A DNA stretch of 37,836 nt from Hominimerdicola alba 8 (GTDB lineage Bacteria; Bacillota; Clostridia; Oscillospirales; Ruminococcaceae): assembly GCF_000178155.2 (NCBI RefSeq), contig NZ_ADKM02000098.1, forward strand, positions 1 through 37,836. Reading direction: 5' to 3'. The notes under the pieces were generated by a model. The model saw only the letters and a program-made list of their open reading frames with translations. It did not search any database and was not told the origin of the DNA. Shown piece after piece: positions 3,401-27,017 of this stretch; position 1 is the first letter of the stretch, and every line of letters starts with the position of its first letter. Both the position numbers and the translations under genes were made by a program.

Positions 3401-3401
3401 A

Positions 3402-5201
3402 ATGAGAGGAAAAAAGTTTTTATCGGTGCTGACTGCGGCGGCTATGCTGGGAAGCACAACAGGTCTGGCGGCACTGGCTGAGGGTGCGGAGAAAGCACCA
3501 TCAAAGAAGAAGACCTACAACTATGTGGCACTGGGCGACAGCATAGCGGCAGGCTACGGGCTGTACAAGGGCGAAGGTCTTGACCCAGCGATGATAATCA
3601 ACGATAAGCTGTTGGCTGACCCTGTACAGGGAGCATATCCAGCCATATTCACAGGCTATCTCAAAGAGTTGGGCGCGCAGAACGGCGTTGAGGTAAAGGG
3701 CACTAATCTGGCGGCTACAGCATTCCGCGCTGAGGACATCGAAAAAGTCATCAGGCAGGAGGGCTATCAGGGCGAGTTTTCAAAGATGATACTTGAAATG
3801 TTCGTGAAGACCATACCCGCCGATGTGCTGACACCTTACCACGAATACTTCAATGATGCGCTTAGCGAAGCTGACCTTGTGAGCATACAGCTGGGCGGAA
3901 ATGACATAGTGATGAGCATTGTACCCGACATGCTGATGAGCGAGAACCCTGTTTTGCAGGCATCGGGCGTATCGCTGGCGCTGACGCTCTTCGGGCTTGA
4001 TACCACCACAGCGATGGGCGCAGGCATCAAGACTATAAACGATAACAAGGACAAGATAACAGCTGAGTCTTTCCTTGAAGCCGCAAACTACATGAAGAAT
4101 GTGGCTGAAAAGGCAGATGAACTGGTAGAACAGTCGGCTGAGCATGTAAAGGGCGTTGTCAAGGCAGTGCAGGAAGTCAACGGCGAAACCGATATCGCGC
4201 TGATAAGCATGTTCAACCCTTACCGCACAGAAGATATCGAGCCTGAACTGACAGAGGACATATTCTCGACACTGGGTCCCATCTTTTCGGAAGCATCTGA
4301 TGCGGCTGCCGAAAATGAAGCACAGGTAGATGAAAAGGGTGTACCCACCGATGGTTACATAGATGTGCTAAACGAAAAGGTAGAGCAGGTGACCGAACTG
4401 AAAAAGGCTATGGAAACCCTGAATGATGAAGCGGCTGAAAAAATGATGGAGCAGGCGGAGAAAGCTGAGGATATCAGCGAACTGAAAGACGCGGTCACTG
4501 AGATCACCACCGATGACAACGAGGCTGCGTACTATGCAATGGTAGATCTTCTTGATAAGATCGCTGATATTGAAGAGGTCCAGAAATTGCTTGACATAAT
4601 CAACAGCGGTGCAGATGTCAGCCAGCTGCCCGATATCACTGCTGTTATCGAACAGTTCCGCAACAGCACTGCGGCGGCAGAAGCGGCTGCTATGGCACAG
4701 CAGATAGCCGGTCCCATAGCTATGCAGATGGCAGGCAAAAACGTTGACCCGCAGATAAAGGGTCTTAACGAAAAGCTGAAAGCCATAGCCGCCGAAACAG
4801 GTGCGGTATACGTTGATGTTTACGGCATCTCACCTGAAACTGACTCCGACCCGCACCCCAACGCGAACGGTCACAAGGAGATAGCTGACATAATGTTTGC
4901 AGAACTTTCCGATATGGTCAGAGAGAGAATGTCAGCAGACGGCACCACTACTGCCGACGAAGACACCACAGGCGGCGATGACACTGTTTCTTCCGATGAA
5001 GACAAGACTGTAGGCGATATCAACGGCGACGGCAAGATCAATGTAACAGATATCTCGCTGGCGGCGGCACAGGTAAAGGGCATCAAGGCGCTGAGCGCTG
5101 AGTTTTTCCCCTTCGCTGATGCCGACCACAGCGGCAGGATAGATGTTACTGATGTTGTGCTGATAGCGGCACATGTCAAGAATGTTAAACATCTTTCATA
5201 A
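3402..5201 (+). CDS. Secreted SGNH/GDSL hydrolase with C-terminal type I dockerin
   Basis: A 599-residue protein. The start at 3402 is chosen because AAGGAGGAG lies just before it and a signal peptide follows at once (KK, hydrophobic core, AALAEG around residue 26). An in-frame ATG at 3375 lacks these. SGNH motifs are GDS (Ser47), GGND (Asn167) and DPHPN (Asp483, His485). Between the last two lies an insert of ~310 residues, acidic and coiled-coil-like, far longer than usual. Thr/Asp-rich linker ~510-535 leads to a dockerin (537-595) with two calcium-loop repeats, DINGDGKINVTD and DADHSGRIDVTD. Expected role: an ester hydrolase (possibly acting on plant cell-wall acyl groups) attached to a cohesin scaffold outside the cell. 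The substrate is not readable from sequence. Confidence 0.88.
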   Translation: MRGKKFLSVLTAAAMLGSTTGLAALAEGAEKAPSKKKTYNYVALGDSIAAGYGLYKGEGLDPAMIINDKLLADPVQGAYPAIFTGYLKELGAQNGVEVKGTNLAATAFRAEDIEKVIRQEGYQGEFSKMILEMFVKTIPADVLTPYHEYFNDALSEADLVSIQLGGNDIVMSIVPDMLMSENPVLQASGVSLALTLFGLDTTTAMGAGIKTINDNKDKITAESFLEAANYMKNVAEKADELVEQSAEHVKGVVKAVQEVNGETDIALISMFNPYRTEDIEPELTEDIFSTLGPIFSEASDAAAENEAQVDEKGVPTDGYIDVLNEKVEQVTELKKAMETLNDEAAEKMMEQAEKAEDISELKDAVTEITTDDNEAAYYAMVDLLDKIADIEEVQKLLDIINSGADVSQLPDITAVIEQFRNSTAAAEAAAMAQQIAGPIAMQMAGKNVDPQIKGLNEKLKAIAAETGAVYVDVYGISPETDSDPHPNANGHKEIADIMFAELSDMVRERMSADGTTTADEDTTGGDDTVSSDEDKTVGDINGDGKINVTDISLAAAQVKGIKALSAEFFPFADADHSGRIDVTDVVLIAAHVKNVKHLS

Positions 5202-13151: not shown

Positions 13152-13381
13152 TGTTCTATGATCTTCTTTTTATCGTCGGTTTATATCAACGCTTTTTCGT
13201 TAGAAACCGTAAAAAAACAATGAGCTATTAATCATTATTCATGGTCGAGTCGATACGATAAGAAAAGCAGACAAAGAGTCAAAAAAACTTCTGGAGTTTT
13301 GATTGCGCTATAATGAAAGGATTATTACGGTTAGAATGTCCTTGGTTTTGTCCACTATACCAAATTAAGGACTATAAAAGC

Positions 13382-13410
13382 TTGACATGATTGGTGATAT
13401 TTGATATAAT
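13382..13410 (+). promoter_or_regulatory. Strong promoter outside the left-most shufflon repeat
   Basis: TTGACA (13382-13387) and TATAAT (13405-13410), spacer 17 bp. It points right, across the silent minus-strand hsdS cassette (antisense to it) and toward hsdM about 600 bp downstream. I see no equally good promoter between the cassette and hsdM. Confidence 0.75.
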
Positions 13411-13441
13411 GAATATTAGTATTTGTAAGATTATAGCTCAC

Positions 13442-13460
13442 GCTGATGAAGGGTGATAAG
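13442..13460 (-). repeat. Shufflon repeat B, copy 1 (LITLHQR)
   Basis: Inverted copy of CTTATCACCCTTCATCAGC, identical in all five copies; it marks the downstream end of cassette a. Confidence 0.9.
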
Positions 13461-13946
13461 GGTGTCGAGCTTTGCAAAGAAAGTGCCGATTTGGTGCTGT
13501 TCCTTTACGTCGGACGGTACTGTAAGGACTGTTTCAAAGTAATCGGCAGGAGTGATGTTGAGCAGTCCGTGATTTCTTGCACCCTCGGCAGCAATGGCTT
13601 GAACTCCCTTATGCCAACAGTCGGTATCATAATACGAAACAAGAAAATCAGAGTCAATATTTCCGTCCTCTTTCAGAGCGAATACAATGTAAAGTGTCGA
13701 TAATACGCCCATTTCGTACCTATCAAGTCTCTTGACTGCACCCCACGGGGCATCAGATGATGTACTCTTATTGTAGGCAAATTCACCTTTCTTCAACAGG
13801 TAGTAACCGCTTACATCTCGGCTTGCGATACGCTTATCGAAGAACTCGTTTTGATCTATCAAGCCATACTGTGCTGATATAGTAAGTGGTAGCTCTGATT
13901 CAAGGTTTTCGTTCTTTCTCGTCACTCTCTCGACCATATCAGACAG

Positions 13947-13961
13947 CTTACGCTGTTCCCA
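13947..13961 (-). repeat. Shufflon repeat A, copy 1 (WEQRK)
   Basis: Inverted copy of TGGGAACAGCGTAAG at the upstream end of cassette a. Identity with the copy at 21978 extends to 20 bases by including TTTCC. Confidence 0.9.
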
Positions 13962-14026
13962 GGAAAAAGTTTTAATTAAAATCATACCGGATGTAATACC
14001 GTACATATAGATTAGGAGGTTCTTTT

Positions 14027-16654
14027 ATGAACAAACAACAACTCGCTAATAAGATATGGGAAAGCGCTAATAAAATGCGCTCTAAAATCGAAGCTAACGA
14101 ATATAAGGACTATATCCTTGGCTTTATTTTTTATAAATATATTTCAGATGTTGAAATCACACACCTCTTAGGGCTGGGTTACACAACAGATACGTTATAC
14201 GAAGTACGAGAACCTGTATACCCTGACCCAGATAATGCGAGTGCTCCTTTCGATGACGAAGAAACAGTTAAGGATCTGGAAGAGCAAATCGACAATATCA
14301 AAACGGATATCGGATATTTTATCCCTTACACTGATCTTTTCAGCACTTGGCTTGAACTTGGGTCAGATTTTGATGTATCAAATGTCCGTGATGCACTCAA
14401 TGCTTTTAATAATCGTCGTATCGGTAAAACGCACGAAAAAGTGTTTAAGGGCATTTTTGACACGCTCCGCACAGGTCTTTCCAAACTCGGTGGTACTGCT
14501 GGAGAGCAGACGAAAGCTATTCGTGATTTATTGAATCTTATCAAGGATATCCCGACTGATAACAAGGAAGACTATGACGCTCTTGGATTTATCTACGAGT
14601 ATCTTATCGAAAACTTTGCGGCAAATGCAGGCAAAAAAGCTGGGGAATTCTATACTCCGCATGAGGTGTCGCTGCTTATGTCTGAAATTGTAGCATATCA
14701 TCTGCGTGATCGTAAGGAAATCAAAATTTACGACCCCACAAGCGGTTCGGGATCTCTCCTTATCAATATCGGCAAAAGCGCAGCACGTTATATGGGAACA
14801 GGCAACAATATAGCCTACTATGCACAGGAACTGAAGCAGAATACCTACAATCTTACACGAATGAATCTTGTAATGCGTGGCATCAAGGCGAATATGATAG
14901 AAACTCGCTGCGGTGACACGCTTGAAGACGACTGGCCTTATTTCTCCGAAGATGACAAAGGTGTTAAGATCGAGGGTACTTATGATCCTCTATATGTTGA
15001 TGCAGTTGTATCAAATCCTCCATACTCGCAAAATTGGGATCCGGACGGCAAAGAAAATGACGATCGATATTCCGGTTACGGTGTAGCACCTAAATCCAAG
15101 GCGGACTATGCCTTTTTGCTCCACGATCTTTACCACATAAAATCTGACGGAATTATGACTATCATTTTGCCCCACGGTGTTTTGTTCCGAGGCGGTGAAG
15201 AGGGTGAAATACGCCGTAACCTTATTGAGCGTAACAGAATTGATGCTATAATCGGATTGCCTGCCAATATTTTCTTCGGTACAGGTATTCCGACAATTAT
15301 AATGGTACTCAAGAAAAACCGCATTAACGATGATGTACTGATCATTGACGCATCTAAGGGGTTTGAAAAAGCCGGAAAATCCAATAAACTTCGAGCATCG
15401 GATATTCGCCGTATTACCGATACGGTAATAGACCGAAGGGACGTTCCGAAATACAGCCGTAAAGTAAACCGTGAGGAGATCAGGGCTAACGACTATAACC
15501 TAAATATTCCTCGATATGTGGACAGCTCCGAACCGGCTGAAACATGGGATATCTATGCTCAAATGTTTGGCGGCATACCGAACATTGAACTCGATGCACT
15601 TTCTGAATACTGGACAGCATTTCCCAAACTGCGCAGATCGCTTTTCCTGGCAAGATCGACAGAGTACAGTGAGGTCACAACAGACGATATAAAAACAACT
15701 GTTTGCAGAAGTGATGATGTATCTGCATTCCGTGAAAAATATCGAACAGCTTTCGATGATTTTAGCGACTATCTTTATACTGAGTTAATAGAGGGATGGG
15801 AAACCGTTCACACAGCAAGCGAGGAAAGTGTGCTGTCTGCAAATATTTTCAAGCGACTGGAAAACATTTCCCTTATTGACCCTTATGAAGCCTACCAACT
15901 GCTTGACAATGAATGGTCGACTATCTCCGCAGATTTAGAAAGTATGCATTCGGAGGGCTTTGAGGCTGTTAAACAGGTAGATCCTAATATGGTACTCAAG
16001 AAAAAAGGCAACGAAGATATTGAGGTTCAGGACGGCTGGAAAGGTCATATTCTTCCATTTGAACTTGTGCAGTCGGCTTATCTTTCGGAAGATATTGAAA
16101 AAATCTCAATTATGGAGAGTCGTATTGCAGAGATCGACAGCGAGACAAATGAGCTTTTTGAAAGTCTGAGCGAAGATGATAAAGAAAATCCATTCGTGAA
16201 TGATGACAAAACCGCATTTGTTGCCGCAGAGGTCAAAAAAGCGATCAAGGCAAAAGAGGTATCAATCGAAGTACTTGAAGTGCTGAAAAAATACGATAAG
16301 TTGATTACAGAGCAGAAATCTATTGCTAAGAATGTCAAGAAGGCGAGAGAGGATCTGCACGAAAAAACAAAGGAAACTATCGAGATACTTACAGATGAAC
16401 AGGCTTGTGAAATGCTGCGAGCAAAGTGGATCAACCGTCTTTGTGGTGAGCTTGCAGGCTTGCCCGATGCTGTGGTAAATACATTTACCGCAAAAATACA
16501 GGCACTTGCCCAAAAGTACAGTGAGACCTTGTCAGAAGTTGACGAGGATATCAGACGAATTGAAAGTGAACTTGGCAGTATGTTAGAAGAACTGACAGGA
16601 AGTGAATTCGATATGGCAGGATTGCAGGAGCTGAAAAAGCTCTTTGGAATATGA
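14027..16654 (+). CDS. hsdM: Type I restriction-modification methyltransferase subunit HsdM (long form)
   Basis: An 875-residue DNA adenine methyltransferase subunit; ATG 14027 follows TAGGAGG. N-terminal helical domain (NKQQLANKIWESANKMR) as in HsdM. Catalytic region: GEFYTPHEV (206-), DPTSGSGSLL for S-adenosylmethionine binding (236-) and NPPY (330-333), the target-adenine motif. Usual HsdM proteins have about 500-550 residues. Here ~350 more follow, including helical, coiled-coil-like stretches (about 680-790 and 845-870) that may help contact HsdS or HsdR. It works with HsdS for methylation and with HsdS and HsdR for restriction. hsdS follows after 45 bp. The gene sits between repeats of opposite orientation, so it may itself be inverted. 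Confidence 0.93.
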   Translation: MNKQQLANKIWESANKMRSKIEANEYKDYILGFIFYKYISDVEITHLLGLGYTTDTLYEVREPVYPDPDNASAPFDDEETVKDLEEQIDNIKTDIGYFIPYTDLFSTWLELGSDFDVSNVRDALNAFNNRRIGKTHEKVFKGIFDTLRTGLSKLGGTAGEQTKAIRDLLNLIKDIPTDNKEDYDALGFIYEYLIENFAANAGKKAGEFYTPHEVSLLMSEIVAYHLRDRKEIKIYDPTSGSGSLLINIGKSAARYMGTGNNIAYYAQELKQNTYNLTRMNLVMRGIKANMIETRCGDTLEDDWPYFSEDDKGVKIEGTYDPLYVDAVVSNPPYSQNWDPDGKENDDRYSGYGVAPKSKADYAFLLHDLYHIKSDGIMTIILPHGVLFRGGEEGEIRRNLIERNRIDAIIGLPANIFFGTGIPTIIMVLKKNRINDDVLIIDASKGFEKAGKSNKLRASDIRRITDTVIDRRDVPKYSRKVNREEIRANDYNLNIPRYVDSSEPAETWDIYAQMFGGIPNIELDALSEYWTAFPKLRRSLFLARSTEYSEVTTDDIKTTVCRSDDVSAFREKYRTAFDDFSDYLYTELIEGWETVHTASEESVLSANIFKRLENISLIDPYEAYQLLDNEWSTISADLESMHSEGFEAVKQVDPNMVLKKKGNEDIEVQDGWKGHILPFELVQSAYLSEDIEKISIMESRIAEIDSETNELFESLSEDDKENPFVNDDKTAFVAAEVKKAIKAKEVSIEVLEVLKKYDKLITEQKSIAKNVKKAREDLHEKTKETIEILTDEQACEMLRAKWINRLCGELAGLPDAVVNTFTAKIQALAQKYSETLSEVDEDIRRIESELGSMLEELTGSEFDMAGLQELKKLFGI

Positions 16655-16699
16655 GCAGTGCAGTTGCCACGCTCCGTTCATGAAAGGAGTTTGTGTAAA

Positions 16700-17800
16700 A
16701 TGACAAACAAAAATAATATTCCTGCGATTCGTTTCAAGGGTTTTAATGATACTTGGGAACAGCGTAAGTTGGGCGATGAAGCTATTGAGATACTTGCTGG
16801 TGGCGATATTGATAAGAGCAAAACCGTTGAAAACGGAAAGTATCCGATATATGCAAACGCTCTCACAAACGATGGTGTAGTAGGATATTACGATGATTAT
16901 TATAGAGTAAAAGCACCGGCTGTTACTGTAACAGGACGAGGTGAAGTAGGATTTGCTCAGGCGAGAATGGTTGATTTTACGCCTGTTGTAAGACTTTTGG
17001 CTATACGCTCCAATCACGATTGCTACTTCTTGGAAAATGCGATAAATAATCATAAGGTAGTTGTCGAATCAACAGGTGTTCCTCAGTTGACCGTCCCACA
17101 GCTATCTTCTTATAACATTTTCTTTCCTAAAAATGTCGAGGAAGAAACAAGAATTGGCGAGTTCCTTCACAACCTCGACTCCCTTATCACCCTTCATCAG
17201 CGTAAACTTGACAAATTGAACAAAGTCAAAATTTCAATGCTTGGAAAAATGTTTCCTAAAAATGGTGCTGATGTACCCGAAGTGCGATTTAAGGGATTTA
17301 CTGATTCTTGGGAACAGCGTAAGTTAGAAGAAGTCATTACTGTTGGTAACGGAATGGACTATAAGCACTTATCTGAGGGAGATATTCCTGTTTACGGAAT
17401 GGGCGGTTATATGTTGAGTGTTGATAAAGCACTATCATATGACAAAGATGCTATTGGCATCGGAAGAAAAGGAACGATTGATAAGCCTTATGTTTTGAAA
17501 GCACCGTTTTGGACGGTAGATACGCTGTTTTACTGTATTCCTAAAGAAGATTATTCACTTGATTTTGTGTATTGTATTTTTCAAAACGTGAACTGGAAAG
17601 AAAAGGACGAGTCAACAGGCGTACCAAGTTTATCAAAGGTTAATATAAATTCTACCGATGTTAAAGTACCAGCTTTAGCAGAACAAGAAAAAATCGGAGC
17701 ATATTTCTCAAAGCTCGATGATCTTATCACCCTTCATCAGCGTAAGTTAGAAAAACTACGAAATATAAAGAAATCAATGCTCGAAAAAATGTTTGTGTGA
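16700..17800 (+). CDS. hsdS: Type I R-M specificity subunit HsdS (expressed copy, TRDs b and c)
   Basis: A 366-residue protein. The start at 16700 is chosen for AAAGGAG about 11 bases upstream and for the typical opening NIPAIRFKGFNDTWEQRK; the longer frame from 16658 lacks such a signal. Two half-units of similar plan follow: TRD b (~23-155), LITLHQRKLDKLNKVK helix, second start-like VPEVRFKGFTDSWEQRK, TRD c (~210-335), and final LITLHQRKLEKLRNIK helix. Each TRD reads one half of a bipartite recognition sequence, and the helices set the spacing. Both halves carry shufflon repeats A and B at codons for WEQRK and LITLHQR, so either TRD could be exchanged. Recognition sequences cannot be told from here. 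Confidence 0.93.
   Translation: MTNKNNIPAIRFKGFNDTWEQRKLGDEAIEILAGGDIDKSKTVENGKYPIYANALTNDGVVGYYDDYYRVKAPAVTVTGRGEVGFAQARMVDFTPVVRLLAIRSNHDCYFLENAINNHKVVVESTGVPQLTVPQLSSYNIFFPKNVEEETRIGEFLHNLDSLITLHQRKLDKLNKVKISMLGKMFPKNGADVPEVRFKGFTDSWEQRKLEEVITVGNGMDYKHLSEGDIPVYGMGGYMLSVDKALSYDKDAIGIGRKGTIDKPYVLKAPFWTVDTLFYCIPKEDYSLDFVYCIFQNVNWKEKDESTGVPSLSKVNINSTDVKVPALAEQEKIGAYFSKLDDLITLHQRKLEKLRNIKKSMLEKMFV
16754..16768 (+). repeat. Shufflon repeat A, copy 2
   Basis: TGGGAACAGCGTAAG at the start of TRD b in expressed hsdS. Confidence 0.9.
17183..17201 (+). repeat. Shufflon repeat B, copy 2
   Basis: CTTATCACCCTTCATCAGC at the end of TRD b in expressed hsdS. Confidence 0.9.
17309..17323 (+). repeat. Shufflon repeat A, copy 3
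   Basis: TGGGAACAGCGTAAG at the start of TRD c in expressed hsdS. Confidence 0.9.
17723..17741 (+). repeat. Shufflon repeat B, copy 3
   Basis: CTTATCACCCTTCATCAGC at the end of TRD c. The bases just before it (CTCGATGAT) differ slightly from the other copies (CTCGACACC or CTCGACTCC). Confidence 0.9.
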
Positions 17801-17810
17801 GGTGAAATAT

Positions 17811-18416
17811 ATGCTTGAAAATAAAATCAACGCACAAAGCTCGGCAGAGCTTGCAAGAGAGGAAGAACGTATTTCAAAGCAAAAAGCTATGGCATTATTT
17901 GAACAGGATATGCTTGCTGACAAAAAAGCCGGTACACTGGACACACTCATGTTTATCCATAAAACGCTTTTCGGGGATATATATTACTTTGCAGGACAGG
18001 TACGGACCGTGAATATTGCAAAGGGTAGTTTTAGATTTGCTCCTGTTATGTATCTGGATCAGTCCTTGAAAACGGTGGAGCAGATGCCACAAAATACCTT
18101 CGACGAGATCGTTGCAAAATATGTTGAAATGAATGTTTGCCACCCGTTCCGTGAGGGGAACGGCAGAGCAACAAGGATATGGCTTGATCACATTTTTAAG
18201 ACCGAACTAAAAATGGTCATTGACTGGAGTATGATCGATAAAGAGGACTATCTGCTTGCTATGGAAAGAAGTCCGATACGCTCTACAGAGATAAGTGTAT
18301 TGCTTAAAAATTCTCTTACCGATAAAACAGAAGACAGAGAAGTATTTATGAAAGGTATTGATACAAGCTATTACTACGAGGGATACACGGCTTTTGATAT
18401 AAGCGAACTTAGATGA
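17811..18416 (+). CDS. fic: Fic-domain protein within the type I R-M operon
   Basis: A 201-residue Fic-fold enzyme. The start at 17811 follows GAGGTGA by a few bases, 10 bp after the hsdS stop. The active-site motif is complete: HPFREGNGRATR with His111, the acidic residue, the GNGR anion loop and the following Arg. The flap region upstream (KGSFRFAPVMYL) is as in AMP-transferring Fic proteins. The N-terminal helix (SSAELAREEERISKQKA) is where an inhibitory helix would be expected, but I do not see a clear (S/T)xxxE(G/N) motif. Fic proteins usually transfer AMP to Ser, Thr or Tyr of a target protein. Its place between hsdS and hsdR suggests a function linked to this locus, possibly control of an R-M subunit or abortive defence. 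The target is unknown. Confidence 0.88.
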   Translation: MLENKINAQSSAELAREEERISKQKAMALFEQDMLADKKAGTLDTLMFIHKTLFGDIYYFAGQVRTVNIAKGSFRFAPVMYLDQSLKTVEQMPQNTFDEIVAKYVEMNVCHPFREGNGRATRIWLDHIFKTELKMVIDWSMIDKEDYLLAMERSPIRSTEISVLLKNSLTDKTEDREVFMKGIDTSYYYEGYTAFDISELR

Positions 18417-18467
18417 TACTCACAGCAGTGACCATAGCTTGCAAAACAGATCAGAGAGGAAAACACT

Positions 18468-21400
18468 ATGAATACATTTGCAAAAGAAGCTGATTTTGAG
18501 GAAGCTCTTATCGACGCCCTTAAACAAAAGGGCTGGAACGATAAAGGCGGGGTTCTCCGCTATCCGACTGAAAAAGATCTGATCAAAAACTGGGCGGATA
18601 TCCTTTTTCAGAATAACAATACCATTGACCGCCTGAATGGTCATCCGATGACAGATGGCGAGATATCGCAGATCATCGAACAAATAAACGGTCTGCGTAC
18701 TCCGCTTAATCTTAATGCTTTTATCAACAGCGGCACTAAAGACGGCACGATCAGTATTACTCGTGACAATCCCGATGACCCCGACCATTTCGGTGCGGAG
18801 ATCTCACTTACGATCTTTAATCGTGCCGAAATCGCAGGTGGTCAGACTCGATATCAGATCGTACAGCAGCCGAAATACACCGCAAAAGCACTCTATCCCG
18901 ACAGACGTGGCGATCTGATGCTTTTGATAAACGGTATGCCTGTGATACATATAGAGCTTAAACGCAGCGGTGTAGATGTCAGTCAGGCTACAAATCAGAT
19001 AGAAAAATATGCACATGAGGGAGTGTTCACGGGATTGTTTTCACTCGTGCAGGTTTTTGTAGCCATGAACCCTGAAGAGACCGTATACTTTGCAAATCCG
19101 GGTCCGGACGGTGTATTCAACAAGAATTTCTTTTTTCACTGGGCTGACTTCAATAATCAGCCTATCAACAATTGGCACGATATAGCTGAAACACTGCTTT
19201 CTATCCCTATGGCACATCAGCTCATCGCCTACTATACCGTAGCAGATGCTACTGACGGCATATTGAAAGTTATGAGAAGCTACCAATTTTATGCAGCCTC
19301 GGGAATATCCGATAAAGTAGCCAAAATTAAGGATTGGGACGGTAAACAACAGCTAGGCGGTCATGTATGGCATACCACGGGAAGTGGTAAGACAATGACT
19401 AGTTTTAAAGCGGCACAGCTTATAGCAAGTTCTCATGATGCGCATAAAGTTGTTTTTCTTATGGATAGAATAGAACTTGGCACACAATCGCTATCTGAAT
19501 ATCGTAACTTTGCCGAAGCAACAGAATCCGTACAAGGAACGGAAGATACGACAGTGCTTTTCAACAAATTGAAAAGTTCAGATGCCTCGGATACGCTTAT
19601 TGTGACATCAATTCAGAAGATGAGTAACATTGATGATGAGTATAACCGGTCAAAGCAAAAGGACTGGGATATAATTCTAAAAAAGCATATAGTCTTTATT
19701 GTTGACGAGTGTCACCGCTCCACATTTGGCGATATGATGATTACGATCAAAAAAACATTTCCGAATGCTGTTTTCTTTGGTTTTACAGGCACACCTATCC
19801 GTCCTGAAAATGAGAAGAAAGGCAATACAACAACAGATTTGTTCGGCGAATTGATACACAAGTATACCGTTGCAAACGGTATTCATGACGGAAATGTACT
19901 CGGGTTTGACCCCGATATGATCTGCACTTTTGAAGATGACGAACTAAGACAAGCTGTTGCACTTGATGAACTTCACAAAGATCCGACTGATAAGACTGCC
20001 GTTGCTGAGATCATGCAAAGTGAGGAAGAAAAGAAAGTTTACGACTACTATATGTACGAAGTACCAATGGCAGGATTTGAAGATGAAAATGGAAAGTACA
20101 TCAAAGGTATTGAGGATATGCTTCCTAAAACACAGTACGATACGAAAAATCATCGTACCGCTGTAATAAGCGATATTATAAAGAAGTGGGATAAACTCAG
20201 CCGTGGAAGAAAATTCCATGCGATCCTTGCTACTTCAAGTATCCCCGAAGCGATAGAATATTACCGTCTGTTTAAATCTCCCGAATTATCGAACACACTT
20301 CGTATTGCAGCACTTTTTGAACCAACTATAGATAACGATGGTGGCAACAAATCTATCATTAAAGAAGACGGTATAATTGAGATGTTGGAAGACTATAATA
20401 AAATGTTTGATCAGCACTTTTCTATGCGTTCCTATGGATTGTACAAGAAAGATGTATCTGCACGACTTGCACACAAGGGTGTGTATAAGGACATAAAACC
20501 CGAAAAATGCGTAGACTTGCTTATAGTGGTTGATCAGATGCTGACTGGATTTGACTCTAAATGGGTAAACACTTTATATTTAGATAAGGTTCTGCGTTAC
20601 GAAGGACTGATCCAGGCATTTTCAAGAACCAATCGTCTGTTTAATGGCAATGATAAGCCATTCGGCAATATTCGTTATTACCGCAAGCCTCATACTATGA
20701 AAGCGAACATTGAACGTGCTTTTGACCTATATTCCGGCGAAAAACCCGATGAACTCTTTGCGGATAAGCTTCCCGGAAATATAGCAAAAATGGCTGACAT
20801 TTATCAGGATATTTATACCTTATTTGAAAATGCAGGCATAGAAGACTTTGAAAAAAATCCGGCAGATAAAAGCGAACGAGCGCAGTTTGCCAAGCTGTGG
20901 AAACAGTTTAATGATGTTCTTGCAGCAGCGAGAATACAGGGTTTTGAATGGGATACACCGTATGCAGATGAAAACGGCGAAGTCTACGAACTGCCCGATG
21001 AAAATACTTATCTGATATTAGCGCTCCGTTATAAGGAACTCTTTACAGGCGGCGGAACTGGTGGCGGCGGACCTATGGATGTTCCATATGAAATCGATAC
21101 TCACCTTACGGAGATAGACACAGGGCGTATTGACAGAGATTATATGAACTCACGCTATGCCAATTATCTTCGCTTATTACACGACAGAAAAGCAACTCCT
21201 GAGGAATTGCAGAAAAAACTTGATGATTTGCATAAGACTTTTGCCACGCTCACACAAGAGGAACAAAAGTATGCGAATATTTTTCTTCACGATGTACAAA
21301 GCGGTATCATCGAGCCCGACAGTGACATCTCATTTCGTGACTACATAGCACAGTATATGGTTAAAGCTAAAAACACTGAGATACGTCGCTGTGCAGAATT

Positions 21401-21650
21401 GCTTGGATGTGATGAAGAAAAACTGACGGAACGTGTTAACGCACATCCTACCGAAAAGACACTTGACTATGGAAACCGCTACACAGAACTTGTACAGTCT
21501 GTTGACCGTGTCAAAGCTAAAGCTTTCTTTGAGGAAAAAGAGGGACGCACATTGACAGTAATTAAGGTCAATAATAAAATAAGAACTCTACTGAAAAACT
21601 TTATCCTTTCCGGAGGCTTTGATATAGAAAGCTGTGATGATGAAGAATAG
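18468..21650 (+). CDS. hsdR: Type I restriction endonuclease subunit HsdR
   Basis: A 1060-residue motor/nuclease subunit; GAGAGGAAAAC precedes ATG 18468. The N-terminal nuclease has the PD-(D/E)xK pattern at Asp149 (RRGDLML) and Glu163-x-Lys165 (IELKRSG), followed by QATNQIEKYAHEG. The superfamily 2 translocase has Walker A TTGSGKT (Lys308), DECH (413-416), TGTPI, and late motifs LTGFDSKWVNTLYLDK and QAFSRTNRLF. A helical C-terminal part of ~350 residues, with a GGGTGGGG linker near 867, should bind the methyltransferase. With HsdM and HsdS it cuts unmethylated foreign DNA after translocation. All key residues are present, so it should be active. The stop overlaps the next small frame. Confidence 0.94.
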   Translation: MNTFAKEADFEEALIDALKQKGWNDKGGVLRYPTEKDLIKNWADILFQNNNTIDRLNGHPMTDGEISQIIEQINGLRTPLNLNAFINSGTKDGTISITRDNPDDPDHFGAEISLTIFNRAEIAGGQTRYQIVQQPKYTAKALYPDRRGDLMLLINGMPVIHIELKRSGVDVSQATNQIEKYAHEGVFTGLFSLVQVFVAMNPEETVYFANPGPDGVFNKNFFFHWADFNNQPINNWHDIAETLLSIPMAHQLIAYYTVADATDGILKVMRSYQFYAASGISDKVAKIKDWDGKQQLGGHVWHTTGSGKTMTSFKAAQLIASSHDAHKVVFLMDRIELGTQSLSEYRNFAEATESVQGTEDTTVLFNKLKSSDASDTLIVTSIQKMSNIDDEYNRSKQKDWDIILKKHIVFIVDECHRSTFGDMMITIKKTFPNAVFFGFTGTPIRPENEKKGNTTTDLFGELIHKYTVANGIHDGNVLGFDPDMICTFEDDELRQAVALDELHKDPTDKTAVAEIMQSEEEKKVYDYYMYEVPMAGFEDENGKYIKGIEDMLPKTQYDTKNHRTAVISDIIKKWDKLSRGRKFHAILATSSIPEAIEYYRLFKSPELSNTLRIAALFEPTIDNDGGNKSIIKEDGIIEMLEDYNKMFDQHFSMRSYGLYKKDVSARLAHKGVYKDIKPEKCVDLLIVVDQMLTGFDSKWVNTLYLDKVLRYEGLIQAFSRTNRLFNGNDKPFGNIRYYRKPHTMKANIERAFDLYSGEKPDELFADKLPGNIAKMADIYQDIYTLFENAGIEDFEKNPADKSERAQFAKLWKQFNDVLAAARIQGFEWDTPYADENGEVYELPDENTYLILALRYKELFTGGGTGGGGPMDVPYEIDTHLTEIDTGRIDRDYMNSRYANYLRLLHDRKATPEELQKKLDDLHKTFATLTQEEQKYANIFLHDVQSGIIEPDSDISFRDYIAQYMVKAKNTEIRRCAELLGCDEEKLTERVNAHPTEKTLDYGNRYTELVQSVDRVKAKAFFEEKEGRTLTVIKVNNKIRTLLKNFILSGGFDIESCDDEE

Positions 21651-21883
21651 TGATACATAGTGTTCAATTGGCAGAAAACGTTAAAGATATGTATTTCTCA
21701 AAAATACAAATTTATGAATCCGCCGATTTCGACAGCTATTCCGCAAAGCACGAAGGCATTTCTAAGTTCAAATATCATCAGTCGGTCAAAAAGGCACTGC
21801 TGACCTTGCTGAATGAAGAAGTAATACCACTTCGGGATGATGATTATAGAATTGATGACACAGCATTACTTAACAAGTCCTAA
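21650..21883 (+). CDS. Small hypothetical protein overlapping the hsdR stop
   Basis: A 77-residue frame starting at GTG 21650, which shares its first base with the last base of the hsdR stop, so translation would be coupled (no good separate ribosome binding site). Composition is protein-like: NVKDMYFSKIQIYESADFDSY, then a basic helix KFKYHQSVKKALLTLLNEEV and an acidic tail. I do not recognise a family. It ends before the hairpin at 21923. It could be an accessory factor of the R-M locus or the remnant of a longer gene. Confidence 0.4.
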   Translation: MIHSVQLAENVKDMYFSKIQIYESADFDSYSAKHEGISKFKYHQSVKKALLTLLNEEVIPLRDDDYRIDDTALLNKS

Positions 21884-21922
21884 CATCAAAAAAATCATAA
21901 AATCACGAAAAATCGCCTATTT

Positions 21923-21957
21923 GGGAGCTAAGTTTTTCTTAGCTCCCTGTTTTTTTA
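21923..21957 (+). terminator. Terminator of the R-M operon
   Basis: GGGAGCTAAG (21923-21932) pairs perfectly with CTTAGCTCCC (21938-21947) around TTTTT, then a long T run. It separates hsdR from the silent cassette just downstream and so keeps that cassette unexpressed. Confidence 0.88.
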
Positions 21958-21977
21958 TGCTTGTTTGTGCTATTTCC

Positions 21978-21992
21978 TGGGAACAGCGTAAG
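21978..21992 (+). repeat. Shufflon repeat A, copy 4
   Basis: TGGGAACAGCGTAAG, preceded by TTTCC as in the copy at 13947-13961 but in opposite orientation. Confidence 0.9.
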
Positions 21993-22463
21993 GTTAAAGA
22001 TATAGCCGATAACACTTATGGTGGAGGCACTCCTCAGACCTCCATAGATAGTTATTGGAACGGTGAAATACCGTGGATACAATCACAAGATATTATAGAA
22101 AATCAGCTTTTTAATGTTGAGCCGAGGAAGCATATTTCAGAAGAAGCAATATCAAAATCTGCTACGAAATTAGTACCCAAAAACTCCATTGCAATAGTGA
22201 CTCGTGTAGGCGTTGGAAAGCTCGCATTTATGCCGTTTTCTTATTGCACAAGTCAAGACTTTCTTTCGCTGTCTGGTATACAGATAGACGAAAAATATGC
22301 AACCTATTCGATATACCAAATGTTGCAAAAAGAGAAGCAAAATGTACAGGGCACATCAATCAAAGGAATAACCATAGAGGAGATGCTTTCAAAGAAGATT
22401 CCAGTCCCTTGTAACAGTGATGAACAAGGTGCGATTGGTGCATTTTTTCATAACCTCGACACC

Positions 22464-22482
22464 CTTATCACCCTTCATCAGC
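22464..22482 (+). repeat. Shufflon repeat B, copy 4
   Basis: CTTATCACCCTTCATCAGC. Like copy 1 it is preceded by CTCGACACC and followed by GTGAGC, but in opposite orientation to it, which extends their shared inverted repeat beyond the core. Confidence 0.9.
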
Positions 22483-22508
22483 GTGAGCCGCCAAAGGAGG
22501 ATAAGATT

Positions 22509-23441
22509 TTGAACGATATAAAAACGGATACTCTGTTCCATGAGTATTACTGTCAATGGCTGGTTATATATAAAGAAGGATCGGTCAGAGGCGTAACAAT
22601 GCAGAAGTATCACCTGACCGCAGAATGGGTGAAGAAACTGATCCCCGATGTGAAACTCTGCGATTTTGACAGGATCACATATCAGCAGCTCATCAATGAT
22701 TATGCTGAGACACACGAGCGCCAGACCACTATGGATTTTCACCACCAGCTCAAAGGAGCTATCCTTGATGCAGTCGATGACGGCTTGATCGCCCGTGATC
22801 CCACTCGCAAGGTTATTATCAAGGGTAAGTCTCCCAACGATAAAAAGAAGAAGTATCTCAGCCGTTATGAGCTTCAGAAGCTGCTTACAAGCCTTGACCT
22901 GAACAGCGGTTTGAATATGGATTGGCTTATTCTGCTTATTGCTAAGACCGGTATGCGTTTTTCCGAAGCGATTGCAGTAACGCCTGCGGACTTCGATTTC
23001 ACTCATCAGACGCTTAGTGTTAATAAGACATGGGACTATAAAGGCGAGGGCGGCTTTCAGCCTACCAAGAACAAGTCCTCGGTAAGAAAGATCCGCCTTG
23101 ACTGGCAAACGGTAGGACAGTTCTATGCTATCGTCAGAGAACTGAATGATACTGCCCCTATCTTTGTTTCAAAAGAAAAGAAGATTTACAACTCTACTCT
23201 CAACGATGTGTTGGAAAGACATTGCAAAGCTGTCGGAATCCCTACTATCTCCGTTCATGGACTTCGCCATACACACGCATCGCTTCTCCTGTTCGACGGT
23301 GTTTCGATCGCCAGTGTTGCACAGAGACTCGGACACTCAAGCATCAATACTACACAGAAGACCTATTTGCACATCATCAGAGAGCTTGAAAACAAGGACA
23401 TTGACCTCATCATGAAGTCGATTTCCAGTTTGCTCGACTAA
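22509..23441 (+). CDS. Tyrosine recombinase of the hsdS shufflon
   Basis: A 310-residue XerC/D-type recombinase. TTG 22509 is chosen as start because AAAGGAGG lies 8 bases upstream; the open frame reaches farther back into cassette d. N-terminal SAM-like DNA-binding part (~10-110). Catalytic residues are complete: Arg150 (GMRFSEA), His250 and Arg253 (HGLRHTH), His276 (GHSS) and Tyr286 (TYLHI). It sits between silent cassettes d and e, which face each other, as in hsdS loci whose specificity is switched by a resident recombinase (for example the pneumococcal SpnIII locus). Likely role: inversion between oppositely oriented A or B repeats. Which repeat is the true crossover site cannot be told. 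Confidence 0.9.
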   Translation: MNDIKTDTLFHEYYCQWLVIYKEGSVRGVTMQKYHLTAEWVKKLIPDVKLCDFDRITYQQLINDYAETHERQTTMDFHHQLKGAILDAVDDGLIARDPTRKVIIKGKSPNDKKKKYLSRYELQKLLTSLDLNSGLNMDWLILLIAKTGMRFSEAIAVTPADFDFTHQTLSVNKTWDYKGEGGFQPTKNKSSVRKIRLDWQTVGQFYAIVRELNDTAPIFVSKEKKIYNSTLNDVLERHCKAVGIPTISVHGLRHTHASLLLFDGVSIASVAQRLGHSSINTTQKTYLHIIRELENKDIDLIMKSISSLLD

Positions 23442-23476
23442 GTACATAAATAATGCGGTTTACGCTGGTTTCCCTT

Positions 23477-23512
23477 AAAGGGCATGACGGTCAAAACGTC
23501 ATGTCCTTTTTT
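23477..23512 (+). terminator. Terminator after the shufflon recombinase
   Basis: AAAGGGCATGACG (23477-23489) pairs with CGTCATGTCCTTT (23497-23509, one G-U), then T run. It lies inside the 3' tail of the silent cassette e frame on the other strand. Confidence 0.78.
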
Positions 23513-23523
23513 ATTTGGCTTAT

Positions 23524-23542
23524 GCTGATGAAGGGTGATAAG
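23524..23542 (-). repeat. Shufflon repeat B, copy 5
   Basis: Inverted copy of CTTATCACCCTTCATCAGC; the next base is A where the other copies have G. Confidence 0.9.
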
Positions 23543-24016
23543 GGAGTCGAGCTTTGAGAAATACTCTCCGATTTTTTCTTGTTCCTCATATTTCGGATAA
23601 AGCAAAACTACATTTTCCAAATCTGAATTATGGATATGAACAACAGATTTTCCTTGTGCTCTTTTTGATAGCTCTTTTTGCTGATTACCATTTGAAATTG
23701 TCAGGGCAAGGAAAACAGGATTGATATAATCGTCAGGAACAATAATATTCAAATCGCCACCAAGCAAAATGCCCGATTTTGCGACAAAAGAAGCCCTTGA
23801 AATATCTTCTGCCGTTTCGCCAGATGCAGGCACGATAACTTCGTGTCCAGTGCTATAAACAGAATTAGGCTGAACATCTACGAAAGTATCGACCTCGCTG
23901 ATAACAGTTTCATATTTTGTGTAGAGCCGACCATAAAGGATTATGGGTGTGCCATTTTCTTTCAAATCGTTCTTTGAATAGCCTGATCCTTTGGAAAATG
24001 TCGCAGCCGTCCTTAA

Positions 24017-24031
24017 CTTACGCTGTTCCCA
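24017..24031 (-). repeat. Shufflon repeat A, copy 5
   Basis: Inverted TGGGAACAGCGTAAG at the upstream end of cassette e; right-most element of the shufflon. Confidence 0.9.
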
Positions 24032-24084
24032 AAGACGTGCTACGAAAAATAAAAAGGTAGGAAAATCATAATGCTTTATCTGCT

Positions 24085-24320
24085 AACCCCAAATATCCGT
24101 TTGTAAAAATCACGAGTTCTGTATGATTTTATTAGAGAGATGTTCCGCATAATGGTTTGAAAAACGCAACATCACTTGACATACCCCCTGATGTTTAAAT
24201 ACGATATACACCCCCACATTTTTCATAGAGCTAATTTATTGAACACGCAGAAAATAATCACAAAATCTCTAAACCCGCTTATATAATCCCTCAAAGTGTC
24301 TGTACTAATGAACGAAGGGT
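24085..24320 (+). repeat. Long direct repeat, copy 1
   Basis: About 235 bp with diverged similarity to 24393-24624. Shared anchors are AGTTCTGTATGA, GTTCCGCATAA, ACGCAGAAAATAAT, CCGCTTATA and CTCAAAGTGTC, in the same order and nearly the same spacing. No convincing gene or tRNA lies in it. Confidence 0.6.
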
Positions 24321-24392
24321 TCCTCTATTCAAATCAAATATATTTTGCACAAAAACACAAGGGCTTCAATGTGCATCTATCCAAATTTTTTT

Positions 24393-24624
24393 AACCCTCA
24401 AATCCGGTTACAAAAATCGCAAGTTCTGTATGAACTATTGAGAAAGGTGTTCGCATAACCGTTCTGAAAACATATCTGAATGTGTTGCACCCCTGTGTCT
24501 AAAACTGATATGCAGACTGCACACAATCATCAAGACCGACTTGTTGAATACGCAGAAAATAATTACAAGATCTCCGAAACCGCTTATAAAATCGCCTCAA
24601 AGTGTCGGTACTTATGGAGGGATA
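24393..24624 (+). repeat. Long direct repeat, copy 2
   Basis: Second copy, offset about 307 bp from the first and separated from it by ~70 bp. The stretch 24032-25072 has no supported gene. Besides the two repeats it holds an unassigned region 24625-24928 and the oriT-like region. Confidence 0.6.
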
Positions 24625-24928
24625 ATTTAACCCACCATTAAACCCATACCGTCAATTGACATCTGCCCCACCACTGTGTCTCGATATTGAAATGATACAT
24701 TTTTTGCACAACTTTGGTCATCCCGTTTTGTTCAATGATACACAGTTTTTTACGGAGACCCGGATCTGCCTAAACTTTTCATTGAAAATCCTAGGTTATA
24801 GTAGAGGCAGTCATCTTTTTGCTGTCCAGGCAGCGGTCAGTGCGTATTCGGACATCAGCCCATACGGGCTAAAAAACGGTTCTATGATGACCCTTTTATT
24901 TTTTATCAGACTTTGCGTAGCAAGTAGA

Positions 24929-25003
24929 GAAAGTGCCGTATTCTTTGGCACTTTCTTCCAAAACGCAGTGTTACCCCTGCGATTTTTGCGTTTAGGGGAC
25001 CCT
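24929..25003 (+). other. Candidate origin of transfer upstream of mobC
   Basis: A perfect 9-bp stem (GAAAGTGCC 24929-24937 with GGCACTTTC 24947-24955) is followed by interlocking inverted repeats AACGCA/TGCGTT and CCCCT/AGGGG around 24963-24998. Stem-loops directly upstream of a mobC gene are typical of oriT. No nick site can be assigned with confidence. Confidence 0.45.
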
Positions 25004-25072
25004 CGCCCTAAACAAAAAGCCCCTCATCTGAGGAGCATAAAAAATCAAAAACCGATTGAAAGGAGAAATGAA

Positions 25073-25414
25073 ATGGCAAGAAAGTACAAGCAAGTCCACC
25101 GAAAAGAAATCGATTTTTCACTCGATGAATGGGCTGAGGTCGAGCGTAGGGCTTCTGTTTGCTGTATGAAAACAGGAACATTTATACGGCACATGGCTGT
25201 CAACGGTAAGGTTGTAAGTTTTGATGTAAAAGAGGTCGCACCAACGCTGAACGGAATGCGTATCATTTCAAACAACATCAATCAGGTGGCAAGAAAAGCT
25301 AATGAAACAAACAGCATCTATGCCGAGGATGTTGAGAAACTGAGAAAGGAAGTGGAAGCTCTCAGCCATACGCTAAGCAAGTTTGTGTCCACAGTACGTT
25401 GGAAAAAAGTCTGA
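25073..25414 (+). CDS. mobC: MobC-type mobilisation (relaxosome) protein
   Basis: A 113-residue protein. ATG 25073 follows GAAAGGAG; a longer in-frame opening from 24656 covers the oriT-like region and is not credible. The N-terminal ~50 residues (EIDFSLDEWAEVERRA, TGTFIRHMAV) are ribbon-helix-helix-like. The C-terminal half has the MobC pattern LNGMRIISNNINQVARKANE followed by a coiled coil. MobC helps the relaxase open DNA at oriT. No relaxase gene follows; xis starts within 100 bp, so mobilisation would need a relaxase from another element. Confidence 0.82.
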   Translation: MARKYKQVHRKEIDFSLDEWAEVERRASVCCMKTGTFIRHMAVNGKVVSFDVKEVAPTLNGMRIISNNINQVARKANETNSIYAEDVEKLRKEVEALSHTLSKFVSTVRWKKV

Positions 25415-25776: not shown

Positions 25777-25820
25777 AAATATGCAAGTTCGGGTCTCTAT
25801 CTTTGAAAGGAGAGATCACT

Positions 25821-27017
25821 TTGAGTGAAGAAAGAAGAGACCATTTGAACAGAAAACTCCGATTTGGCGAGTGTCAGAATTCGGACGGCAGATATCGTTA
25901 TACCTATGTTGACGCTTTCGGAAAGAAAAGGTCGGTCTACAGCTGGCGGCTGGATACCACCGATCCTCATCCCGAGGGAAAACGGCACGATCTTTCTCTG
26001 AGAGAAAAGGAACAAAAGGTCGCTAAGGACACCTACGATCATATCGCTGTCAACGGCGGGAACTACACTGTGCTTGAGCTGGTGGAGAGATATCTGAAGC
26101 TGAAAACAGGTGTGCGTCAGAGTACACAGATAGGCTACCGTACCGTCATCAATCTTCTCAAAAAAGACCCCTTCGGCAGTCTGCGCATCGACAAGATAAG
26201 ATTGTCCGATGCTAAGATCTGGCTGATAAAACTGCAAAGAGAAGACGGAAAAAGCTACAGCTCGATCCACACGATAAGAGGTGTTCTGCGCCCCGCATTC
26301 CAGATGGCAGAAGACGACGATCTTATCCGCAAGAACCCATTCAGATTTGAACTGGCGACCATCATTGAAAACGACAGCGAGCCGAGAGAAGCTCTGACAG
26401 AAAAGCAGATGAACGACTATCTTGATTATGTCAGGGACGATGACTATTTCAGCCGCTACTACGACGGGATATTTATTCTTTTTAATACGGGAATGCGTAT
26501 CTCGGAATTTTGCGGACTGACAGTATCGGACATCGACTTTGATGAACACCGCATAAATGTCGAGCGTCAGCTTATCCGCACAAGCAGCGGCAAGTACATC
26601 GTACAGGCACCCAAAACTCACAGCGGCATACGCTTCATACCCATGACCTTCGAAGTTGAACAAGCATTCCGCAGGGTGATAAGCAGCCGCAGAAGAGTAA
26701 AGAGCGAACCTGCTGTCGGCGGCTGTATCGGATTTCTGTTTCTTGATAAAAACGGTATGCCAAAGCTGGCTATGCACTGGCAGAAAGTCATGCAGCGCAT
26801 TCGTGAGAAATACTGCCATGAACGCCTCAGAACTCTGCCGAAGATAACGCCCCACGTCTGCCGTCACACCTTCTGCACCAACATGGCAAGGAAAGGCATG
26901 AATCCCAAAATGCTGCAATACATAATGGGTCATGCCGACGTAGGAGTTACTATCCCCGTTCCAAATAGTAACACGAAAAACCACAGCAGTACCTACCGAC
27001 AAGAACAATCATTATAA
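25821..27017 (+). pseudogene. int: Tn916-family integrase, 3' end replaced, catalytic tyrosine missing
   Basis: 398 codons from TTG 25821, which follows AAAGGAGAG; the opening SEERRDHLNRKLRFGECQ is that of Tn916 Int. The N-terminal arm-binding domain (SDGRYRYTYVDAFGKK) and core-binding domain are present, as are catalytic Arg226 (GMRISEF), His345 and Arg348 (HVCRHTF) and His371 (GHAD). The tyrosine should lie ~10 residues later (family pattern TLNxYxH), but after GVT the sequence becomes IPVPNSNTKNHSSTYRQEQSL and stops. The break is at about 26954. A Tyr is present in the new tail but at the wrong distance and without the motif. The protein should bind DNA but not recombine it, so the element is probably immobile. 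Confidence 0.78.

Follow-up and report, generated by a model that had tools for sequence, protein, structure and literature searches.

A resident tyrosine recombinase and two short sites as the probable basis of target-recognition-domain cassette exchange in hsdS of Hominimerdicola alba 8

How one type I restriction-modification (R-M) locus might exchange the parts that set its DNA specificity is the question raised by a 37,836-nucleotide stretch of Hominimerdicola alba 8 (contig NZ_ADKM02000098.1 of assembly GCF_000178155.2; this whole stretch is called the window below). The window contains hsdM, hsdR and one complete hsdS, and the frames of these genes and of a nearby recombinase gene are all open. 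A first-pass annotation had read the locus as a five-cassette shufflon of hsdS, in which ten repeats bound five target-recognition domains (TRDs). We find it well supported, by anatomy and by comparison with relatives, that the locus is a TRD-cassette shufflon best viewed as a recombinase-driven form of DOMO, a published type of TRD movement discussed below.

The cassettes are delimited by two short repeats, whose coordinates are collected in Table 1. Repeat A, TGGGAACAGCGTAAG, occurs in five exact copies, each at the start of one TRD, and repeat B, CTTATCACCCTTCATCAGC, in five exact copies, each at the end of one TRD. All ten stand where the first-pass annotation had placed them, and their orientations bear out its assignment of two expressed TRDs, one silent TRD on the same strand (cassette d) and two silent TRDs on the opposite strand (cassettes a and e). 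Throughout the 4.05-Mb draft genome (136 contigs), A and B were each found five times and never outside the locus, while the reversed A and B patterns did not occur. A and B encode the conserved HsdS residues WEQRK and LITLHQRK, respectively. The family consensus extends B as CAGCGTAAG, with the same 3' end in A, and the final bases of B differ within the window (GTAAG, GTAAA, GTGAG and ATAAG). Searching Pfam at E<=0.001, we detected Methylase_S in hsdS (two stretches), d and e and not in a; the last is regarded as a TRD because it matches TRD2 of an hsdS gene in a related Ruminococcus locus (L027) at 96% identity, and it matches a silent cassette there at 97%. A survey of recombining hsdS genes took as its criterion an exact inverted match of at least 20 bp within 30 kb, according to the available part of that paper (PMC7394358); the longest match of this kind between hsdS and e, read by eye, is 28 bp and lies at the TRD1 B site.

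The complete tyrosine recombinase reported between d and e was recovered as an open frame matching Phage_integrase. It aligns to solved integrases, including the regions of the R, K, HxxR, H and Y motifs, which we take to have their usual catalytic roles. At E <= 1e-40, 7 of the 396 family genomes and 2 of the 29 genus genomes have the recombinase, counting the present one. A search of GTDB genome contigs confirmed 341 relatives, of which the 80 best were examined (L numbers denote loci of relatives and G numbers denote genomes; L027 and L028 are both from Ruminococcus, L028 being R. flavefaciens FD-1). The best 80 of the 341 come from Clostridia, Bacilli, Bifidobacterium, Desulfovibrionaceae, Succinivibrionaceae, Pasteurellaceae and others, and at least one A-B cassette, called with up to 3 mismatches in A and up to 4 in B, is present at 62 of these 80 loci. 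In a viral collection (43 relatives), A-B cassettes were found with the two most similar recombinases (66% and 63% identical) and not with the other 41 (59% or less). Three Ligilactobacillus salivarius plasmids (about 213.65 kb) have an identical gene order around the recombinase, with one short hsdS beside hsdM in a layout unlike that of the window. A protein-level search of L180–L184 found no cassettes, and the L. salivarius layouts neither support nor refute the reading given here.

Several further observations concern the recombinase and its relatives. Cassette d and the recombinase form a single open frame of 534 aa (21837–23441), and in FD-1 (L028, 8747–10933) the recombinase shares an open frame of 728 aa with two silent TRDs that are identical to each other. 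A functional TRD-recombinase fusion was considered and set aside as probably incidental: the open frames of seven other orthologues measure 117–325 aa, and AGGAGG followed by TTG fits a separate start. The hsd locus of Mycoplasmopsis cynos (L186) has a recombinase 61% identical to that of the window and six B-like sites (1–3 mismatches in 24), and no A-like site was found in it with up to 4 mismatches allowed. In G334, a genome of the family, contigs 45 and 49 hold eight exact A sites without a recombinase match at 1e-40, and the five on contig 45 are spaced alternately by 1549 and 3687 bp. Five exact A sites in G241, G249, G334 and G368 lie no more than 200 bases from a contig start, as would be seen if assemblies broke at heterogeneous junctions.

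Since both repeats encode conserved HsdS residues, they could be conserved protein motifs and nothing else, any rearrangement then being RecA-type homologous recombination; the DOMO authors could not separate site-specific from homologous recombination, as far as the available part of their report goes (PMC3077401). We addressed this at the DNA level with 174 cassettes from 68 loci gathered by DNA similarity, leaving out duplicate loci (L024 and L030) and overlapping 3-mismatch calls (L103 and L104), and with a second retrieval at the protein level without DNA constraint, which gave 143 cassettes from 60 loci. The sequences counted are related, and the draws are not independent. WEQRK, which can be coded in 48 ways, is written by one identical 15-mer in 117 of 124 sites, and LITLHQ has the exact coding in 78 of 133 sites and is within one base of it in 119. 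The heptamer TGGGAAC, the first seven bases of A, occurs in 143 of 143 protein-retrieved sites, where the Trp-Glu filter fixes Trp and Glu, but not the Glu codon or the next base, and would miss TGGTACC-like sites; it also occurs in all 174 of the mismatch-based set (up to 3 mismatches). The B heptamer CTTCATC is present in 136 of 143 protein-retrieved sites. Other genomes supplied too few hsdS genes for a control (61 genomes were searched and 29 of 30 returned loci used, and the two-motif filter passed only 2 overlapping loci, which lie on a single short contig with near-A and B sites), and therefore the neighbouring Glu-Gln codons of the EQ..I motif just upstream of B served as the control. 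There the coding varies: GAACAA 58, GAACAG 39, GAGCAA 25 and GAGCAG 14. In silent cassettes, conservation drops directly past the CAGCGTAAG of B, and upstream of A there is only partial conservation. On these comparisons, the A and B sites are DNA signals conserved beyond protein need: their synonymous positions are nearly frozen, unlike those of the adjacent conserved motif, and in silent copies the sequence is preserved as far as the arm extends and hardly further.

Comparison of cassettes across loci points the same way. Comparing the 174 cassettes with one another gave 53 pairs with 75% identity or more over most of the length, and in 14 pairs chosen from these the identity is 90–100% inside the cassette and 18–58% in the 80 bp outside. 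This fall also argues against the protein-motif explanation, which we consider very improbable. The same TRD (93–100% identical) occupies both halves of hsdS in L029, L036 and L106; one TRD is TRD2 in the Bifidobacterium locus L057 and TRD1 in L072; and the same TRD stands in an expressed and a silent place in L027, L063, L064 and L095. The layout x-TRD1-y-x-TRD2-y with the same x and y, which defines DOMO, is present in the window, and one TRD at both positions is seen in these relatives (L029, L036, L106 and L057/L072) and not within the window. The earlier suggestion that each TRD can enter either half of HsdS thus gains support from near-identical TRDs found in TRD1, TRD2 and silent places with unrelated flanks. 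Same-locus TRD duplicates are 99.8–100% identical in L028, L036, L046, L063, L064, L095 and L106. In L095, L106 and L063, a base difference inside the right end of B stayed behind, which places the crossover to its left.

Between L027 and L028, the backbone blocks are 95–96% identical and their inner ends lie at A or B or no more than 46 bases away, except for one short gap inside hsdR; a last block of 320 bases is 87% identical. No cassette of L027 (six) matches one of L028 (five) at 75% identity or more. With backbones at about 95% and no common cassettes, this pair looks like turnover from an outside pool, not reshuffling of a fixed set. It therefore favors, as does the lack of an alternative junction in the assembly, a slow evolutionary replacement in which lineages trade TRDs by horizontal transfer and repeat recombination, with no frequent switching within a line. 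However, the resident recombinase and the silent TRDs with intact sites have been kept, the near-perfect same-locus duplicates indicate recent movement, and analogous resident-recombinase systems switch in culture according to the available parts of two reports (PMC6265443, PMC4948785). We regard slow replacement as possible but rather unlikely; the alternatives weighed here are not all mutually exclusive, nor do they all exclude cassette exchange at A and B.

The anatomy of the sites suggests how such an exchange could work. A would consist of a left arm near CTGACGCT, the center TGGGAAC and a right arm AGCGTAAG. In 107 silent sites, the left arm matches the reverse complement of the right arm at a mean of 4.88 of 8 positions (random, 1.97), and in expressed sites at 5.3–5.7 of 8 (random, 1.9–2.0), the match being clearly best at zero gap. 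Part of this match may reflect coding, since expressed copies and some silent ones use the stretch to encode a conserved HsdS segment. A single arm with two heptamers would give A and B the look of heterospecific recombinase sites. The recombinase most likely binds the arm common to A and B, and TGGGAAC and CTTCATC would be overlaps that need to match, so that A would recombine with A only and B with B only. Recombination at A and then at B would swap one TRD with frame and orientation kept. For PsrA of the pneumococcus, both the 15-bp IR1 and the adjoining upstream sequence are required, and the longer repeats contain IR1-like sequence, as described in the available part of that study (PMC7096588). 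On the sequence evidence, we consider it probable that the locus can undergo a natural recombinase-mediated cassette exchange at A and B sites and is in this sense a TRD shufflon of hsdS.

The heptamers also bear on where a TRD can go. In 31 of 32 two-TRD hsdS genes (window included), the same overlap heptamers occur at both TRDs, and hence the TRDs should be position-free; the B-to-A spacer is 107 nt in 30 of these 32. Repeats at both TRD ends, which the first-pass annotation had called uncommon, are thus the rule in this clade (31 of 32 hsdS genes), and the layout was published in 2011, as the available part of that report shows (PMC3077401). In a Listeria locus (L188, recombinase 58% identical), the first-TRD sites have TGGGAAC and the second-TRD sites TGGTACC, which would lock each TRD to one half. 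The case of L183 is less clear-cut: TGGGAAC, next to a changed arm, also stands at one of its second-TRD sites.

Both halves of hsdS in the window are bounded by one pair of site types, so any TRD would fit as TRD1 or TRD2, allowing 20 ordered pairs, or 25 with copies as seen in relatives. The opposite-strand cassettes a and e would enter by pairs of inversions, and d would join by a third inversion or by excision and reintegration. When blocks were treated as symbols and inverted at matching sites only, 5760 arrangements were reachable, and all 20 ordered TRD pairs occurred in an intact operon; installing a or e took at least two inversions and d three. Excision as a circle and reintegration, in the style of the pneumococcal tvr locus, could instead be the main route, with inversions minor. 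The direct orientation of the d and hsdS sites fits that route, as do the one-TRD hsdS genes (L042 and L076) and duplicated TRDs of relatives, which require deletion or insertion, and tvr itself works so with two repeat types sharing a core, according to the available part of its description (PMC6265443). Nevertheless, two of the three silent cassettes are inverted relative to hsdS, and the recurrence of an opposite-strand cassette just behind the recombinase (24 recombinase matches in 83 loci examined) favors inversion, making the circle a less likely main route, though a conceivable one.

Inversions would also alter expression. The sole 12/12 promoter match in 13300–24200 points through cassette a to hsdM. 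The scan as a whole found 36 candidates against a mean of 27.7 (sd 5.3), modestly above expectation, and only the 12/12 site is relied on. Because this promoter lies outside cassette a, some inversions would silence hsdM and others would detach hsdR. Of 12 one-step inversions, 6 part hsdM from the left promoter, 4 detach hsdR with hsdM still driven and 2 rearrange only the silent part, on the assumptions that all matching inverted pairs recombine and that no separate promoter drives hsdM. Thus, an inversion moving hsdM off the left promoter would give an OFF state, and one between hsdS sites and e sites would leave HsdM-HsdS without HsdR, i.e., modification only. Layouts that recall such states occur among relatives. 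L042 and L076 carry a one-TRD hsdS followed by hsdR, with or without Fic, which resembles a predicted class. In G396, a single TRD separates hsdM from the downstream flank, and hsdR, together with a TRD and the hsdS tail, sits inverted upstream of hsdM. This arrangement resembles what would be expected of an A-site inversion parting hsdM from hsdR, plus a deletion; the hsdM frame of G396 is interrupted near the start, so this copy may be inactive. It is probable that the functional locus extends leftward to the promoter near 13382, beyond the stretch first taken as the locus.

The claim that silent cassettes on both sides of the R-M genes are uncommon held in part: they are uncommon, yet the arrangement recurs. 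Of 36 loci with an hsdM match, 6 have an inverted cassette no more than 2.5 kb upstream of that gene. Among these six, the window and L018 also have downstream silent cassettes, and the cassettes of L025/L026 flank a rearranged hsdM. L018 has an 11/12 promoter match at the equivalent relative place. Between the inverted upstream cassette and hsdM of L018 lies a further gene (3021–4763), perhaps a second defence gene in the operon, the product of which resembles DUF262-type, GmrSD-like proteins.

Several points weigh against recombinase-driven exchange at A and B. The draft assembly holds one arrangement only, with no alternative junctions, and the rearrangements observed are all between species. 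Cassettes were not detected in 18 of the best 80 of 341 loci, several of those contigs being short. Exact A occurs in 16 of 396 family genomes, the recombinase in 7 and both in 3, giving no one-to-one link; fragmented assemblies, hsdS remnants and variant sites may lie behind this mismatch. A strong promoter left of the upstream inverted cassette was found in only 2 of 6 loci and in none of L025, L045, L057 and L072. B has no well-fitting inverted left arm at 7-bp spacing, though its right arm is common to A. That overlap regions must match is a general rule for tyrosine recombinases, and its application to A and B is an assumption. In the window itself, the left arms of A are weak (2 to 5 of 8, by hand count), and the B of cassette e carries a changed arm, AGCATAAG. 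These last two features, together with a remnant of another hsdR (below), would suit a decaying relic, once active and now frozen. The heptamers of all five A and all five B sites are intact, however, and the frames of hsdM, hsdS, hsdR and the recombinase are open, so that we judge a relic quite improbable and prefer the cassette-exchange reading.

The comparison with FD-1 suggests that the module of cassettes and recombinase has been retained while the genes around it changed. The FD-1 recombinase is 99% identical to that of the window, and the recombinase DNA of L027 and L028 is 97–98% identical, whereas their hsdM is 40% identical (best segment) and their hsdR 30–31%. Directly behind the window's own hsdR lies an hsdR end of the FD-1 type (21717–21883), continuing to the A site of d. 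Most simply, the M-S-Fic-R core would have been replaced and the cassette and recombinase module kept. More widely, among 36 cassette-bearing loci with an hsdM match (window included), the lowest hsdM identity to that of the window is 33%, and 16 loci fall below 45%.

Table 1. Features of the hsd locus, in window coordinates
Feature	Position	Strand	Basis or remark
Repeat A sites	13947-13961(-), 16754-16768(+), 17309-17323(+), 21978-21992(+), 24017-24031(-)		Exact matches
Repeat B sites	13442-13460(-), 17183-17201(+), 17723-17741(+), 22464-22482(+), 23524-23542(-)		Exact matches
Candidate hsdM-operon promoter	13382..13410	+	TTGACA-17-TATAAT, TG before second hexamer; outside cassette a
Silent TRD cassette a	13442..13961	-	From B (13442-13460) to A (13947-13961)
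hsdM	14027..16654	+	N6_Mtase, HsdM_N; TIGR00497 above cut-off
hsdS, expressed	16658..17800	+	A-TRD1-B-107 nt-A-TRD2-B; two Methylase_S stretches
TRD1 cassette of hsdS	16754..17201	+	Bounded by A, B
TRD2 cassette of hsdS	17309..17741	+	Bounded by A, B
Fic protein adenylyltransferase, NmFic type, between hsdS and hsdR	17793..18416	+	PF02661; NF046029 295.6 bits, cut-off 230
hsdR, EcoR124_C domain	18468..21650	+	Profile matches
C-terminal remnant of a different hsdR, R. flavefaciens FD-1 type	21717..21883	+	Within 276-bp stretch, running on to repeat A, 97% identical to the end region of FD-1 hsdR
Terminator-like hairpin between hsdR and cassette d	21923..21947	+	
Silent TRD cassette d, in frame with recombinase	21978..22482	+	A, B, Methylase_S
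Tyrosine recombinase, probable TTG start after AGGAGG	22509..23441	+	Phage_integrase
Terminator-like hairpin between recombinase and cassette e	23477..23509	+	
Silent TRD cassette e	23524..24031	-	From B (23524-23542) to A (24017-24031); Methylase_S

Among the accompanying genes, an NmFic-like Fic gene lies beside hsdS also in L029, L036, L042, L046, L049, L062 and L102 (53–68% identity), and the Fic beside hsdS in L057 and L072 is 27% identical to that of the window. Just right of the locus, a MobC/NikA-like gene (24656–25414) and a Tn916-type integrase gene (25803–27017) mark the neighbourhood of an integrative element, with diverged direct repeats spaced by 305–307 bp between cassette e and the mobilisation gene (24088–24616). 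Elsewhere in the window (3375–5201) there is a GDSL lipase carrying a dockerin domain, which we presume fits a cellulosome-forming Ruminococcus.

Known systems share parts of this design. A strict shufflon has the R64 Rci recombinase, sfx sites and pilV; the rearranging gene here is hsdS, not pilV, and the locus only works like a shufflon, the sfx sites not having been compared. An integron has an IntI-type integrase and attC hairpin sites; on the integrase score the locus is not one (50.3 bits with the integron-integrase model, cut-off 265), attC sites not having been searched for. We take the Doc homologue of the pneumococcal tvr locus to have the Fic fold. As far as the available part of its description goes, tvr (SpnIV, Streptococcus pneumoniae) likewise carries additional TRD segments and a tyrosine recombinase within its hsd locus, along with two core-sharing repeat types and this Doc homologue, comparable to Fic here (PMC6265443). 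There, TRDs keep their 5' or 3' place and the repeats are direct, whereas in the window the sites are shared by both halves and silent TRDs lie on both strands and both sides (PMC6265443); tvr has one repeat orientation with TRDs fixed to a half, and two of the five cassettes here are inverted. The ivr/cod/SpnIII system with PsrA (CreX) resembles our proposal in that a tyrosine recombinase inverts hsdS segments at a 15-bp repeat plus upstream sequence, and differs in that three inverted repeats (15, 85, and 298 or 333 bp) lie between entire hsdS genes, where our locus has a pair of short sites for each TRD, according to the available parts of three papers (PMC4948785, PMC7096588, PMC6620402). 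In the Listeria and Enterococcus loci L183, L187 and L188, recombinases are 57–59% identical and B-like sites ending in CAGCGTAAG occur in all three; L183, unlike the window, has paired inverted hsdS genes (annotated) around the recombinase. In the hsd loci of Mycoplasma pulmonis, inverted hsdS genes flank the M and R genes on either side and are switched by site-specific recombination (PMC3077401, PMC9465063), with whole hsdS genes instead of silent TRD cassettes and, in the available part of one report, no x-type site (PMC3077401).

The closest likeness is to DOMO, described in Helicobacter pylori, Streptococcus pyogenes and Mycoplasma agalactiae with the layout x-TRD1-y-x-TRD2-y (PMC3077401). 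According to the available part of that report, it shares with the clade of the window one TRD in both positions, changes from two TRDs to one or three, and movement between loci; its mechanism is given there as unknown, whereas the present locus has a recombinase of its own and inverted silent cassettes, and its short sites are almost invariant in DNA from one phylum to another. Layout and position changes have thus been known since 2011, without a mechanism (PMC3077401), and recombinase-driven switching of hsdS is known as well. The open-licence literature yielded no work on tyrosine-recombinase cassette exchange in restriction hsdS and, on inversion of Ruminococcus hsdS by a recombinase, a REBASE survey only. 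Worth testing are the site code that spans phyla and the ON/OFF and modification-only states predicted for the locus. Some of these loci may already be listed in a 2020 survey of epigenetic invertons.

More tentatively, with a likelihood that we put a little short of even, the A and B sites and the recombinase may form a phylum-crossing, integron-like economy of TRD cassettes, which would cover their capture, storage, inversion and installation in either half. The heptamers would be addresses, A for the start and B for the end, with variants locking TRDs in Listeria-type loci; the economy would span loci with hsdM as low as 33–45% identical, and the same reactions would switch hsdM off or detach hsdR here. 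If so, one enzyme and two short addresses would explain the exchange of recognition heads without touching the HsdM-binding parts, within a cell and between species, and would account for TRDs in either half of HsdS, the mechanism of which the DOMO authors left open. Reading the heptamer as an address would provide a testable code that predicts position-free versus locked hsdS loci from sequence, and a recombinase exchanging cassettes between two built-in heterospecific sites might serve as a laboratory tool. A single locus could then change its specificity, methylate without restricting or go silent, which would bear on phage defence and epigenetic heterogeneity of rumen and gut bacteria.

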